Under the pieces are notes generated by a model that had not been told where the DNA came from, did not search any database, and saw nothing but the letters and a program-made list of their open reading frames with translations. From Xenorhabdus griffiniae (GTDB lineage Bacteria > Pseudomonadota > Gammaproteobacteria > Enterobacterales > Enterobacteriaceae), in NCBI RefSeq assembly GCF_037265215.1, contig NZ_CP147737.1:1706001-1770000 (forward strand): a DNA stretch of 64,000 bases, written 5' to 3'. Both the position numbers and the translations under genes were made by a program. Shown here piece after piece: positions 29,339-34,553 of the stretch; the first letter of the stretch is position 1; each line of letters opens with the position of its first letter.

Positions 29339-29352
29339 TCATTAAATATCTT

Positions 29353-29458
29353 TATACCAATCTAACTTGAAGATGCGTGTGATGTCTCCCCGCGAAGCGG
29401 GGGAGACATCAAGTTTCATATCGTGTTGAAAATGGCCATTTGAAGTTTAATGCGTATA
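29353..29458 (+). repeat. Palindromic repeat, tandem array copy 1
   Basis: Forward unit TATACCAATCTAACTTGAAG ... TTGAAGTTTAATGCGTATA with hairpin TCTCCCCGCGAAGCGGGGGAGA. It carries the variant segment GTTGAAAATGGCCATTTGAAG near its right end, shared with copy 2 only; the last TA is shared with copy 2. Confidence 0.93.
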
Positions 29459-29562
29459 TACCAATCCAACTTCAAGATGTATGTAATTTCTCCCCGCGAA
29501 GCGGGGGAGACATCAAGTTTCATAGCGTGTTGAAAATGGCCATTTGAAGTTTAATGCGTATA
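29457..29562 (+). repeat. Palindromic repeat, tandem array copy 2
   Basis: Forward unit joined to copies 1 and 3 through overlapping TATATA. Its right half is almost identical to copy 1, including AAAATGGCCATTTG. Confidence 0.93.
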
Positions 29563-29665
29563 TACCAATCCAACTTCAAGATGCATGTAATTTCTCCCCG
29601 CGATGCGGGGAGAAATCAGGTTTCATATCGTGTTGTAAATTGCAACTTGAAGTTTAATGCGTATA
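29561..29665 (+). repeat. Palindromic repeat, tandem array copy 3
   Basis: Forward unit with the more usual interior (TCATATCGTGTTGTAAATTG) and hairpin CTCCCCGCGATGCGGGGAG. It closes the array 31 bases before a small minus-strand reading frame. Confidence 0.93.
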
Positions 29666-29695
29666 TAAGAAATGATGTGAAATAAAATTAAAGCA

Positions 29696-30553: not shown

Positions 30554-31705
30554 ATGGCAGCATCAACTTTCTTTATCCCGCCAGTGAATAAAATCGGTAT
30601 GGGATGCATGGACGAAGCCGTCGAATTAATAAAAACTTATGGCTACAGGCAGGCTTTGATTGTCACTGACCGCGTGTTAAACGAGATTGGTGTTGTTGGA
30701 ACAGTTCAGGCTTTACTGGCAGATGTTGGAATAAAAAGTGCAATTTATGATGGAACCAATCCAAACCCAACTACGATTAATGTTGGAGAAGGTTTGGCAA
30801 TTCTGCGCCAGCATAACTGTGATTGTGTGATCTCTTTGGGGGGTGGTTCACCGCATGACTGTGCAAAAGGTATTGCATTGGTGGCAGCGAATGGCGGGGA
30901 TATTCGTGATTATGAAGGCGTCGATCGTTCAGCTAAACCACAGTTACCTTTGATTGCCATCAATACTACCGCAGGGACAGCTTCTGAAATGACACGCTTC
31001 TGTATCATTACAGATGTTGAACGTCATATCAAAATGGCAATTGTAGATAAAAATGTAACGCCTATTTTGTCAGTCAATGATTCTGCATTGATGGCAGGGA
31101 TGCCAAAAGGATTGACTGCCGCAACGGGGATGGATGCGTTGACTCATGCTATTGAGGCTTATGTTTCTACGGCGGCAAATCCTATTACTGATGCTTGTGC
31201 ATTGAAAGCGGTGACAATGATTAGCAATTATTTACGTCGCGCTGTTGAAGATGGCAATGACATGGAAGCGCGTGAAAACATGGCTTATGCCCAGTTTTTG
31301 GCTGGCATGGCGTTCAATAATGCTTCTTTGGGATATGTCCACGCCATGGCACATCAGTTAGGTGGGTTTTATGATTTGCCTCACGGTGTCTGTAATGCGG
31401 TTTTATTGCCACATGTACAGAGATTCAATGCAAAAGTTTCTGCTGCACGTCTGAAAGAGATTGCGGTGGCTATGGGGGTTGAAGTTAGTGCTTTAAACGA
31501 TACGCAAGGTGCTGAAGCTTGTATTCATGCAATCAGTGAATTGGCAAAAGATGTGAATATTCCGTCTGGTTTGACTGAGTTGAACGTAAAAGAGGAAGAT
31601 TTGCCAACATTAGCGACCAATGCGTTGAAAGATGCCTGTGGATTCACTAACCCGATTCAAGCATCACATGAAGAAATTGTTGCTATCTTTAAGGCAGCAA
31701 TGTGA
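30554..31705 (+). CDS. yiaY: Iron-containing alcohol dehydrogenase YiaY
   Basis: 383 residues, equal to E. coli YiaY. Group III iron-dependent alcohol dehydrogenase. Predicted metal ligands D194, H198 ([12 protein letters not shown]), H263 (YVHAMAHQ) and H277 (DLPHGVCN) are intact, and the NAD site GGGSPHD is at 96-102. ATG 30554 has AAGGAG six bases upstream; earlier in-frame codons run through the FNR-box region and are not credible. Its upstream FNR box suggests induction without oxygen. In E. coli yiaY is elsewhere on the map, so this placement is a rearrangement or acquisition. Confidence 0.93.
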
Positions 31706-31804: not shown

Positions 31805-32092
31805 TTAAATCCCAACGCAACATTCTTCTTGTAAGAAGTTGATCAGGTTACCCAAATGCTGATAATCAGGTATACATACGATAGTACGGCTGTGTTTCTC
31901 CTGATGGATTAGCCCGACATTCACCATACGGTTGAGATGATGTGACAGCGTTGAAGGGGGAATACCTAGAGCTTTCTGAATGTCCCCTACCGAGGCTCCT
32001 TTATGACCTGCCTTAACTAAAAACCGGAATATAGCTAATCGGTGATAATTCCCCAGTTCCGCCAGACTTGCTGCGACTTCTTCGTGTTTCAT
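31805..32092 (-). CDS. arsR: ArsR-family arsenical-responsive repressor
   Basis: 95 residues, winged helix-turn-helix. The recognition region is GASVGDIQKALGIPPSTLSHHLNRMV. It lacks the E. coli-type ELCVCDL metal site in helix 3; instead it has a C-terminal vicinal pair C91-C92 (QEECCVGI) plus C73, as in the ArsR types that sense arsenite or methylarsenite through C-terminal cysteines. ATG 32092 is preferred over a TTG at 32110, which would add six residues. Divergent from arsP, with an inverted-repeat operator over its own predicted -10. Confidence 0.85.
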   Translation of the reverse strand: MKHEEVAASLAELGNYHRLAIFRFLVKAGHKGASVGDIQKALGIPPSTLSHHLNRMVNVGLIHQEKHSRTIVCIPDYQHLGNLINFLQEECCVGI

Positions 32093-32110
32093 ACGTGTCT
32101 CTGAACCCAA

Positions 32111-32130
32111 ATTTCTATGTTTCTAGAAAT
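32111..32130. promoter_or_regulatory. Operator 1 of the ars cluster
   Basis: ATTTCTA-N6-TAGAAAT, 7-bp perfect inverted repeat. It overlaps the predicted arsR -10 (TATATT, minus strand 32133-32128). The same motif recurs at 32171-32192. ArsR is the obvious candidate ligand. Confidence 0.75.
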
Positions 32131-32156
32131 ATACTTGACAGGAATTGTAATGGCAA
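32128..32156 (-). promoter_or_regulatory. Predicted arsR promoter
   Basis: On the minus strand TTGCCA (32156-32151), 17 bases, TATATT (32133-32128). The start site would fall inside operator 1, allowing autoregulation. Confidence 0.6.
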
Positions 32157-32164
32157 TCTATCAT
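32135..32164 (+). promoter_or_regulatory. Predicted arsP promoter
   Basis: Consensus -35 TTGACA at 32135-32140, 18-base spacer, TATCAT at 32159-32164. The start site would fall at about 32171, the first base of operator 2. It interlocks with the divergent arsR promoter. Confidence 0.7.
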
Positions 32165-32170
32165 CCGTAT

Positions 32171-32192
32171 TATTTCTATAATACTAGAAATA
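32171..32192. promoter_or_regulatory. Operator 2 of the ars cluster
   Basis: TATTTCTA-N6-TAGAAATA, 8-bp perfect inverted repeat and the same core and spacing as operator 1. It covers the predicted arsP transcription start. AAGGAG, the arsP ribosome-binding site, follows at about 32201. Confidence 0.78.
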
Positions 32193-32212
32193 TAGATATA
32201 TAAGGAGCAGGT

Positions 32213-33217
32213 ATGTCTTCGCAATTACAAGAAACCCTAAACATGTTTGTCTTCCTTGCCATAGAGTTATCAGCCTTGTTTATTGGTATTAGTTTGTTGG
32301 TTGGTATTCTCCAGCGGCATATACCTCCATCTAAGGTAGAAGCGTTACTGAGTGCTAACCGGAAAAGGGGATATTTTCTCGCTGCTGTCCTCGGCGCTAT
32401 CACTCCTTTTTGTAGTTGTTCGACTATTCCTATGTTGAAGGGACTGATCCGTGCCAAAGCTGGTTTTGGTCCAATGATGGTATTCTTATTTTCTTCCCCG
32501 CTATTGAATCCCATCATCGTTGTATTGCTTGTTGCTACTTTTGGTCTGACGCTAACCGCTATTTACGTACTATCTGCCTTTCTGATCTCATTGGGGGCCG
32601 GATGGTTGCTACAAGTATTGGGATTTGAACGTTATGTACGCTACGAAGAGACATCTGGTTGTGGAGTTTCTGGGAGTAGTTGCGACGTTAAACCAACAAT
32701 ATCAAACAGTTGTGAATCAATGAAAGCTCCTTGTTGTTCTGCTACCCAAATGACCTCGCAATCTACAGGTTGTTGCGATAGCCAAACCACTAAAGTGGTT
32801 CGCCCAAAAAGTAAATATAGCGGTTTGTGGCAGGATGCTTGGGCAGATTTTAAGAACGTACTACCTTATTTATTCATTGGTATAGCAATAGGCAGTGTGA
32901 TCTATGGCTATGTTCCGACTAGTCTGCTTGAAAAACATGCTGGCTCGGATAATCCGTTTGCTATCCCAGTTGCTGCTGTAATTGGAATACCACTGTATCT
33001 TCGCGCCGAAGCTTTGATACCGCTTTCAGCCGCTTTGATGACAAAAGGTGTCAGTGCTGGCGCGATTCTGGCATTAATTATCGGTGGTGCTGGCGCCAGC
33101 CTGACTGAGCTGATTTTATTACGTTCCCTATTCACATTTAAGCTTTTGGCTGCCTTTGTCGCAGTTATCCTTGCGATGGCAATGATTGCAGGTTACGCGG
33201 CGTTACTATTTTTCTGA
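32213..33217 (+). CDS. arsP: ArsP-type (DUF318) organoarsenical efflux permease
   Basis: 334 residues, about eight membrane segments in two halves. The permease signature TPFCSCSTIPMLKGL (C67, C69) and SPLLNPIIV are present; the second half has GIPLYLRAEALIPLSAAL. ArsP proteins export trivalent methylarsenicals such as methylarsenite. The central cytoplasmic loop is unusual: seven cysteines between residues 150 and 188 (C150, C157, C167, C174, C175, C187, C188), suggesting metalloid capture. It lies downstream of paired operators and upstream of an arsenite methyltransferase, which supports a methylarsenical role. A broader DUF318 role (other thiophiles) is possible. Confidence 0.85.
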   Translation: MSSQLQETLNMFVFLAIELSALFIGISLLVGILQRHIPPSKVEALLSANRKRGYFLAAVLGAITPFCSCSTIPMLKGLIRAKAGFGPMMVFLFSSPLLNPIIVVLLVATFGLTLTAIYVLSAFLISLGAGWLLQVLGFERYVRYEETSGCGVSGSSCDVKPTISNSCESMKAPCCSATQMTSQSTGCCDSQTTKVVRPKSKYSGLWQDAWADFKNVLPYLFIGIAIGSVIYGYVPTSLLEKHAGSDNPFAIPVAAVIGIPLYLRAEALIPLSAALMTKGVSAGAILALIIGGAGASLTELILLRSLFTFKLLAAFVAVILAMAMIAGYAALLFF

Positions 33218-33259
33218 ATGTTCATCCAATAAACGTATCAGGTCGATCATTATTAGAGT

Positions 33260-33364
33260 TATACCAATCTAACTTCAAGGTGCGTGTGATTTCTCTCCGC
33301 GAAGCGGGGAAAAATCAGGTTTCATATCGTGTCGTAAATTGCAACTTGAAGTTTCATGCGTATA
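33260..33364 (+). repeat. Palindromic intergenic repeat between arsP and arsM
   Basis: Forward unit TATACCAATCTAACTTCAAG ... AACTTGAAGTTTCATGCGTATA, written as the halves AACTTGAAG and TTTCATGCGTATA. It ends 44 bases before arsM. It stays open in the arsM frame and so creates a false N-terminal extension. Confidence 0.93.
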
Positions 33365-33408
33365 TGTCAGGACTAAGATTGGGTTTTATTAGAGGTTATA
33401 GGAATAGA

Positions 33409-34491
33409 ATGATGAAAACTAAAGAACAACAATTATCTCAGCGAGTTGAAAATGTACAAAACTATTATGGTACAACGCTTTCGAGCAAAGAAGATCTGGT
33501 AACTAATGTTTGTACTGTAGATAAACCACCTTCTGATGAGATCAAAGCCATACTAAAGATAGTCCATCCAGATGTGCAGCAGCGTTTTTATGGCTGCGGT
33601 ACTCCTTTTCCTCCTTTGTTGACGGGAGCAACTGTGTTGGATTTAGGTTGTGGTGGTGGGAGAGATTGCTTCATTTTATCTAAGTTGGTAGGGCCAGAAG
33701 GAAATGTCATTGGTGTGGATACGACTCTTGAACAAATTGAATTTGCCAAGAGTTACGTCGAATATCACCGAGAAGCCTATGGTTACAACAAAAGTAATGT
33801 ACATCTTATACACGGTAATATTGAGTCCTTGGATCTACTCAATTTACCGCCGAATAGTGTCGATGTCATAGTCTCCAATTGTGTCATTAACCTGGCGACT
33901 GCAAAATCTGATGTGCTTCAGGGAATGGCTCAATTGCTCAAACCTGGTGGAGAAATTTATTTTGCTGATATTTTTTCTGATCGTAGACTTTCCCAAGAAT
34001 TGAAAAATGATCCCTTGCTGATTGGAGAATGTATTGGTGATGTATTGTATTACGGCGATTTTGTACGAATAGCGCGTGATGCAGGTTTTCGGGATATACG
34101 AATTGTTGCAAGTCATTTAAAAACTATTTGTAACAAATCCATTGAAGAAAAGCTGGGGAATGCAAGGCTGTATTCAATGACTCTCAGGTTATTCAAGATT
34201 GAGCTAGAAGATAGTTGTGAAGATTATGGTCAAGCTGCCATATACAAAGGTAATCTCCCTGGTGCTCCCACTCATTTTATGTTTGATCAAGAACAGGTAT
34301 TTGAAACAGGGAAAGTGGTGCCAATATGTCGAAATACAGCAGATATTATTTGCAAAAGCCGATACCACAGCTTGTTTAGTGTGGTAGGTGGAGGTCGTAC
34401 ACACTATGGCGTTTTTAACGGTAAAACTACGCTAAGTAAATTTGCCGCCTCAGTTGATCCCATATATGCATTAAGCAGTTGTGGTTGCTAA
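33409..34491 (+). CDS. arsM: Arsenite S-adenosylmethionine methyltransferase, AS3MT-like
   Basis: 360 residues. Methylates As(III) using SAM. Seen: SAM motif LDLGCGGGRDC (77-87), and four cysteines at C35 (NVCTVD), C63 (YGCGTPFP), C158 (VSNCVINL) and C208 (IGECIGDVLYY). These correspond, with nearly constant offset, to human AS3MT Cys32, 61, 156 and 206. The C-terminal domain (FMFDQEQVFETGKVV ... ICKSRY) also follows AS3MT, and the tail ends SSCGC. ATG 33409 or the adjacent ATG 33412 is the start; 43 upstream in-frame codons are repeat-derived. It follows arsP by 191 bases that contain the repeat. A truncated repeat follows the stop. Confidence 0.88.
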   Translation: MMKTKEQQLSQRVENVQNYYGTTLSSKEDLVTNVCTVDKPPSDEIKAILKIVHPDVQQRFYGCGTPFPPLLTGATVLDLGCGGGRDCFILSKLVGPEGNVIGVDTTLEQIEFAKSYVEYHREAYGYNKSNVHLIHGNIESLDLLNLPPNSVDVIVSNCVINLATAKSDVLQGMAQLLKPGGEIYFADIFSDRRLSQELKNDPLLIGECIGDVLYYGDFVRIARDAGFRDIRIVASHLKTICNKSIEEKLGNARLYSMTLRLFKIELEDSCEDYGQAAIYKGNLPGAPTHFMFDQEQVFETGKVVPICRNTADIICKSRYHSLFSVVGGGRTHYGVFNGKTTLSKFAASVDPIYALSSCGC

Positions 34492-34502
34492 AGCGAGACC
34501 TT

Positions 34503-34553
34503 ATATTTCTTTTCCCGCAGCGCGGGACACGCATCTTAAAGTTGGATTGGTAT
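34503..34553 (-). repeat. Truncated palindromic repeat after arsM
   Basis: Only a degenerate hairpin (CCCGCAGCGCGGG) and one end (GCATCTTAAAGTTGGATTGG-TAT) survive. With unit 33260-33364 it brackets arsM on both sides. The other end is missing. Confidence 0.75.

Follow-up and report, generated by a model that had tools for sequence, protein, structure and literature searches.

The DNA examined here (the window) is a 64-kb stretch of the genome of Xenorhabdus griffiniae, which consists of one contig of 4.77 Mb. At positions 31805–34491 it carries an arsR-arsP-arsM module, which is probably an arsenical-inducible detoxification unit that senses, methylates and exports. Its three genes are as follows.

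31805–32092, minus strand: arsR, ArsR/SmtB-family repressor of 95 residues (translation, Pfam, AlphaFold model)
32213–33217, plus strand: arsP, ArsP_1 permease of 334 residues (Pfam PF03773, listed relatives)
33409–34491, plus strand: arsM, arsenite S-adenosylmethionine methyltransferase of 360 residues with Cys35, Cys63, Cys158 and Cys208 (solved relatives, alignment)

The start of arsR is most likely ATG 32092, giving 95 residues, and not the TTG of the listed open reading frame (ORF). The start of arsM is most likely ATG 33409 (360 residues, with AGGA 5 nt upstream), which is preferred over a longer GTG ORF from 33280 because the longer ORF crosses a repeat element. Apart from these two starts, which shift inwards from the listed ORFs, the gene identities and coordinates given in a first-pass annotation of the window are right, and its description of a self-contained unit with an ArsR-ArsP-ArsM logic is supported. 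The module is flanked by an Fe-type alcohol dehydrogenase gene (FeADH, 30554–31705), whose product passes the cut-off of the NCBIfam L-threonine dehydrogenase model, and by hisIE; the closest named relatives at the locus are from Xenorhabdus.

The first-pass annotation had also reported arsB, arsC and arsH as missing nearby, as is indeed the case at this locus. Genome-wide, no match to ArsB or Acr3 was found (the ArsK, ArsJ and AqpS pumps were not searched for), and no ArsH above the cut-off, the single match having 20.9 bits (cut-off 292) and an internal stop. The genome has two matches to the ArsC family. Among 30 genomes of the genus, the X. griffiniae genome included, 26 have two such matches, three have three or four, and a single match was found in one incomplete genome; the two common proteins are presumably housekeeping relatives. 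A literature search for Xenorhabdus together with arsenic gave no title on this subject among the 15 listed of 34 papers.

ArsR and its operator-like sites

ArsR scores above the Pfam cut-offs for HTH_20 and HTH_5. Its AlphaFold model, with a predicted local distance difference test score (pLDDT) of 95.0, best matches PDB chain 6j05_A, which we take to be AfArsR, at a template modeling score of 0.90; winged-helix domain and fold thus both place it among the ArsR/SmtB repressors. The 6j05 structure stems from a paper described as dealing with two As(III)-responsive ArsR repressors. The thiols of the repressor and the sites between arsR and arsP are located as follows.

31817–31822, minus strand: codons of the vicinal pair Cys91-Cys92, where the last ArsR helix ends; the pair aligns with the CC of 6j05_A
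31874–31876, minus strand: codon of Cys73, which lies in the final strand of the ArsR winged helix and is a candidate third arsenic ligand (conservation, model)
32111–32130, no strand: putative operator 1, ATTTCTA-N6-TAGAAAT, 18 nt upstream of the arsR start (exact match)
32128–32156, minus strand: candidate arsR promoter TTGCCA-17-TATATT, overlapping operator 1 (10 of 12 consensus bases)
32135–32164, plus strand: candidate arsP-arsM promoter TTGACA-18-TATCAT, between the operators (11 of 12 consensus bases)
32172–32191, no strand: putative operator 2, ATTTCTA-N6-TAGAAAT, 21 nt upstream of the arsP start (exact match)

The C-terminus of ArsR reads EECCVGI and so contains the vicinal cysteines noted in the first-pass annotation. 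Among the 120 listed relatives (of 247 found), cysteine occupies the positions of Cys91 and Cys92 in 116 and 117 sequences, respectively, and that of Cys73 in 119. Cys73 is residue 74 in the numbering of the AlphaFold model, where it lies within the strand formed by residues 71–76. In ArsR/SmtB dimers, as known from SmtB, the last helix of one subunit can begin close to where that of its partner ends. It is therefore possible that Cys73 and Cys91/Cys92 form a three-thiol site shared between two ArsR subunits.

The arsenite site of the AfArsR type (Cys95, Cys96, Cys102) is not present, since the CC pair of ArsR is followed by no further cysteine; a cysteine somewhere after the pair is found in 29 of 121 sequences, the query included. 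The arrangement corresponds to that of SpArsR, which has two C-terminal cysteines without the third one of AfArsR, with Cys73 as an additional conserved cysteine. SpArsR, which lacks a cysteine at the Cys102 position, is reported to respond to methylarsenite and not to arsenite (PMC11868830, PMC13236881), and in an Arsenicibacter ArsR with a different set of cysteines, the loss of one of three is reported to have turned a sensor of arsenite and methylarsenite into a sensor of methylarsenite.

The gap between arsR and arsP is 120 bp long and contains both operator-like sites, which are the only exact matches to ATTTCTA-N6-TAGAAAT in the genome. When one mismatch was allowed, the pattern had four matches versus six for a reversed control pattern, and is therefore not commoner than the control. 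Both sites are kept in outline, with changes, in all nine Xenorhabdus genomes that carry the module (X. griffiniae included), and related sites (up to three mismatches) lie beside three distant arsR-arsP pairs (L102, L103 and the Escherichia coli plasmid locus L110). Promoter-like sites are not enriched in the 3-kb region, with six found versus a mean of 7.2 after shuffling.

ArsP, ArsM and the repeat between their genes

ArsP matches PF03773 (ArsP_1) at 187.7 bits, compared with a cut-off of 32.3, and is 52–94% identical to its 120 listed relatives, of which those with names are mostly called permease. Two features of the protein are set out below.

32405–32431, plus strand: codons of the PFCSCSTIP motif, ArsP residues 65–73 (Cys67 and Cys69 in 120 of 120 listed relatives)
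32633–32821, plus strand: cysteine-rich loop of ArsP, probably disordered, about residues 141–203, with seven cysteines (alignment, AlphaFold model)

The first of these conforms to PXCSCXXXP, the motif by which ArsP has been defined (PMC5552862), so that motif and ArsP_1 domain together assign the permease to ArsP, a family described as exporting trivalent methylarsenicals (PMC6205960). No relative of solved structure was found by sequence (one chance match, E 0.73), and a fold search of the PDB gave no match at E ≤0.001. The loop lies between two helical halves, and the model has a pLDDT below 50 at residues 146–197. Over the family it contains 8.4% cysteine versus 0.8% elsewhere in the protein, with at least four cysteines in 98 of 121 sequences. 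Its ratio of nonsynonymous to synonymous substitution rates (dN/dS) is 0.29 versus 0.085 for the rest of the protein, and its cysteines are kept more than its other residues (on average in 0.60 versus 0.27 of the 120 relatives; permutation p 0.00085, with positions treated as independent). The retention of cysteines in a fast-changing loop would be explained if the loop were a thiol-rich arm for capturing trivalent arsenicals.

The best solved relatives of ArsM are the ArsM structures 5evj (E 1e-86) and 4kw7/4fr0 (E about 8e-79), with 5eg5 and 8xt7 also matched, and ordinary methyltransferases match it far more weakly than these arsenic enzymes. The homology search, proposed earlier as a check on whether the protein belongs to a non-arsenic methyltransferase family, thus favors ArsM. 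Cys35, Cys63, Cys158 and Cys208, the four cysteines already noted, are invariant in all 18 sequences aligned (18 of the 120 listed relatives), and Cys35 aligns with the cysteine at position 44 of chain 4kw7_A; we take the four to be the catalytic cysteines of the family. Homology along the whole chain to solved arsenic methyltransferases and the four conserved cysteines place the protein in the ArsM family. It is filed there in the broad sense and not under a narrower NCBIfam model because its scores lie below the curated cut-offs (25 of the 26 matching families were available for comparison). A role in arsinothricin-type biosynthesis (arsQML) is not supported: the score against NF040538 is low (137.5, cut-off 500) and the neighbors are FeADH and hisIE, arsL not having been searched for genome-wide.

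In this strain, arsP and arsM are separated by an interspersed repeat, and a related sequence follows arsM.

33260–33365, no strand: interspersed repeat of about 106 bp between arsP and arsM (51 reported genome matches, 40 of 401 first-look candidates having been scored)
34527–34553, minus strand: 27-nt sequence downstream of arsM resembling the end of the repeat in opposite orientation (89% complementary to 33261–33287)

No match to the repeat occurs in the arsP-arsM gap of the eight other carriers, and the gap measures 191 bp here compared with 66–150 bp in the seven others with an intact arsM. The 27-nt inverted repeat around arsM could suggest a mobile arsM cassette; this was rejected, since it belongs to the genome repeat, which the gaps of the other carriers do not contain. 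Three head-to-tail copies of the repeat are also present at 29352–29666 of the window, between gnd and a ybaK-like gene.

Distribution, mobile relatives and a second module

ArsP of this type is found in nine of the 30 genomes of the genus (82–100% identity). In all nine the module occupies one site, between FeADH and hisIE, and arsP adjoins arsM, which is intact in eight. The ninth is X. yunnanensis (G029), in which arsM is broken and arsR-arsP are still present. X. japonica (G014) has an arsM remnant of 57 residues beside hisIE; the two loci with decayed arsM are L039 and L040. Another genome of the same species as the window (G009) lacks both arsP and arsM, and its flanking genes are separated by about 90 bp. 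Both this arsP and the remnant are missing from 20 genomes; in 16 of them FeADH lies no more than 1.5 kb beyond hisIE, and in the other four it was not seen there, in one because the contig ends.

Median dN/dS is 0.081 for arsR, 0.131 for arsP and 0.148 for arsM. As judged from these substitution patterns, all three genes are under purifying selection, and with ratios this low the remaining copies look functional. In a check of strict vertical inheritance, distances for arsP correlate with those for the neighboring his genes (Mantel r 0.42, p 0.034, nine genomes), with a lower value for arsM (r 0.23, p 0.25, eight genomes); an ancestral module lost in some lineages and a module exchanged between genomes at this one site would both fit. 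ArsB is found in 11 of the 30 genomes, one of them a carrier with intact arsM, which amounts to one of ten genomes with an intact arsM versus ten of the 20 others (nominal Fisher p 0.049).

Outside the genus, Halomonas, Marinobacter, Chromohalobacter and Microbulbifer are among those with close arsR-arsP relatives. Among 369 genomes sampled from the class, four have the permease (E ≤1e-30), including the genome of the window; the other three have four permease loci, two of which adjoin arsR and none of which has arsM beside it in the stretch examined. On plasmids, relatives of ArsR are found in 114 records (80–90% identity) and relatives of ArsP in 137 (60–80%), whereas relatives of ArsM (E ≤1e-40) are found in only two. 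One of these two, a plasmid of Acinetobacter portensis, also has an arsR-arsP pair, but about 130 kb away; in Chromohalobacter nigrandesensis, the matches to ArsP and ArsM are on contigs of equal length (129,971), which suggests that they share one contig there. By these records, arsR-arsP is a mobile unit that is able to stand alone and that in Xenorhabdus is joined to arsM.

The pair has a counterpart in ISPst2, an ISL3-family insertion sequence of Pseudomonas stutzeri that carries a regulator and a permease as passenger genes and whose isoforms are described with a length of 2,985 bp and their terminal repeats; the accessible part of that paper gives no function for the passenger genes (PMC6305408). 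As in the module, the regulator of ISPst2 belongs to the ArsR family (81% identical) and is encoded divergently from the permease (73%), and operator-like sites lie between the two genes; arsM downstream is found only in the X. griffiniae module. The comparison was made with a copy on E. coli plasmid pU12A_D, an IncN plasmid (L110:883–3867), which is a complete ISPst2-type element with regulator, permease, ISL3 transposase and both terminal repeats exactly, 2,985 bp end to end. The module is not itself a copy of ISPst2 and shares only related passenger genes, as the window contains no ISL3 transposase match and neither terminal repeat (up to three mismatches). DNA at least 95% identical to the regulator-permease part of the E. 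coli plasmid copy is present in 116 plasmid records, and 19 of the 60 of these that were listed come from pigs, pork, chicken or turkey, a count for which no base rate was set. Organoarsenical compounds are used as feed additives for pigs and poultry, and the sources offer only a hint in that direction.

Among characterized systems, a similar one is the methylarsenite-selective pair of Shewanella putrefaciens 200, in which the genes for SpArsR and ArsP have consecutive locus tags (PMC12124457) and the repressor has its two C-terminal cysteines where AfArsR has Cys95 and Cys96 (PMC12124457, PMC13236881, PMC11868830). The X. griffiniae unit differs by the addition of arsM and the conserved Cys73, as judged from the published descriptions. 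The Noviherbaspirillum arsRM and Arsenicibacter arsRMC operons likewise combine a repressor with ArsM and are described as arsenical-inducible (PMC12124457, PMC11868830); as named, they include no ArsP, and the Arsenicibacter ArsR has a different cysteine set.

A second arsP-arsM module, with a PadR-family regulator (PF03551), is found in X. indica, X. budapestensis and Photorhabdus caribbeanensis; two of the 20 Xenorhabdus non-carriers (G006 and G011) hold a module of this type elsewhere. It has the same effector pair (ArsM 63–66% and ArsP 40–42% identical) but is not located at the FeADH/hisIE site, and its short permease lacks the cysteine-rich loop. In two of the three permeases examined, no cysteine is present besides the two of the motif; the third has one more near the N-terminus. 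The regulator contains the motif ECSTxGCC in all six loci read from X. indica, X. budapestensis, P. caribbeanensis, Pseudothauera, a Rhizobiaceae bin and Stutzerimonas, where its gene precedes arsP-arsM or arsA-arsM, and also on a Cupriavidus plasmid, where it precedes a permease alone.

L037:6443–6823; L038:779–1159; L032:6414–6794; L034:5314–5688; L035:6150–6524; L036:2189–2566; L113:6001–6378: genes of PadR-family regulators with ECSTxGCC (seven of seven loci), preceding arsP-arsM, arsA-arsM-aquaporin or a permease alone

On two Roseomonas plasmids, a PadR with CC only precedes a flavoprotein and an ArsK-like transporter (242.5 bits, cut-off 400). The Pseudothauera locus (L034:5314–9911) has the genes for PadR, an ArsA ATPase (TIGR04291, above cut-off), ArsM and an MIP-family channel in a row, and close copies of the part downstream are present in L035 and L036 with conjugation-like genes, as judged from ORFs alone.

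It is plausible that PadR proteins with these three conserved cysteines are a new kind of arsenical sensor. Tentatively, and with rather less confidence than in the detoxification unit itself, we propose that one genus places the ArsM-ArsP pair under two unrelated thiol sensors, ArsR with Cys73, Cys91 and Cys92 (possibly as an inter-subunit three-thiol site) and a PadR repressor with C-x4-CC that would represent a new arsenical-responsive class. A full-text literature search found no experimental PadR arsenic sensor in the papers examined. An interaction network for Exiguobacterium is reported to predict that a PadR-like protein is connected with one related to arsenic resistance (PMC6016940), which is a weak earlier hint of such a sensor. 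The other literature matches to PadR and arsenic were discarded, being two chance word matches in reference lists and one chrA-padR integron.

Function of the module

The gene identities, operator-like sites, conserved thiols, purifying selection and lack of ArsB and Acr3 are read from the genome; operator binding, inducer, catalysis and transported species would be as follows. Without arsenic, an ArsR dimer would occupy the two same-type operators and silence arsP-arsM as well as arsR. Binding of a trivalent arsenical to Cys91-Cys92, with or without Cys73, would release ArsR. ArsM would then methylate arsenite using S-adenosylmethionine, and ArsP would expel the methylarsenite, which air would oxidize to the far less toxic methylarsenate. 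Because the strain is without ArsB and Acr3, methylation followed by export may be its main exit for arsenic.

Several observations weigh against this reading. With no cysteine at the AfArsR Cys102 position, ArsR may not respond to arsenite. All three proteins fall below curated NCBIfam cut-offs: ArsR narrowly for NF033788 (53.7 versus 55), ArsP for both models matched, and ArsM for NF008823 (149.5 versus 263), NF038099 (92.4 versus 400) and NF040538, cited above. The arsR-arsP pair often occurs without arsM, so that its ligand need not come from its own ArsM; the repeat splits arsP from arsM in this strain, so that the two may not be co-transcribed. Replacement of ArsB by the module is weak as an explanation, since independent pairs on the tree give no support for it.

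Some of the same observations would fit a shield against methylarsenite made by others, in which ArsR senses methylarsenite only, ArsP exports it and ArsM methylates what leaks in to less toxic species. The SpArsR-like cysteine pair with no cysteine after it would suit such a sensor, and the abundance of ArsR and ArsP relatives on plasmids, compared with the two records for ArsM, would suit a stand-alone unit facing an outside arsenical. Conversely, the nearly invariant Cys73 could complete a three-thiol arsenite site, and every Xenorhabdus copy of this arsP type adjoins arsM, one of them broken. We regard the shield as unlikely, although it is the most credible of the alternatives to detoxification.

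The first-pass annotation had raised the idea of a chemical weapon. In such a reading, arsenite from soil or prey would be converted to methylarsenite and exported against competitors in the insect cadaver. Methylarsenite has been proposed as an antibiotic of hosts with ArsM (PMC5552862, together with ArsP; PMC6205960, for soil communities; also PMC11653729), and the growth of E. coli is reported to have been reduced when it was cultured without oxygen alongside Paraclostridium bifermentans, which produces methylarsenite, unless the E. coli carried arsP (PMC11653729). In air, methylated arsenicals offer a means of disposal. Without oxygen, methylarsenite is described as exceeding arsenite in toxicity, and these genes could then harm neighbors; these reports tie the idea to anoxia, methylarsenite being oxidized in air (PMC11653729, PMC5552862), whereas the accessible part of PMC6205960 sets no such limit. 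Nothing in the window, the regulation or the distribution points to use as a weapon. The module is confined to a minority of the genus, is missing from a same-species genome in which the flanking genes abut, has decayed arsM in two species (broken in one, a remnant in another), and is built like an inducible resistance unit, with a thiol-bearing ArsR that presumably keeps it off without arsenic. The proposal is thus not supported, and we consider it very improbable.

Equally improbable is an SO_0444-like permease that exports copper, zinc or cadmium and adjoins arsM by chance: the best NCBIfam match of ArsP is indeed the SO_0444 copper/zinc family, its cysteine-rich loop could bind thiophilic metals, and a Nitratiruptor group of ArsR-type regulator, permease and arsC is reported to have risen under cadmium and copper (PMC10092412), but the match to that model, NF033936, reaches 129.9 bits against a cut-off of 300, the partner of SO_0444 is described as a ZntR-type regulator (PMC3219624) and here is ArsR, the adjacency to arsM is fixed, and the ArsP motif is present.

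An arsenical-inducible detoxification unit therefore remains the probable function of arsR-arsP-arsM. It would place a complete methylate-and-export arsenic unit in insect-associated bacteria, in a genome without ArsB or Acr3, and would tie the passenger genes of ISPst2, which are common on plasmids, to arsenical resistance. The clear operator-like sites make the ligand sensed by the repressor directly testable, and sister species reveal a candidate PadR arsenic sensor; if the two-sensor proposal is true, the inducing arsenical would be directly testable for both repressors.

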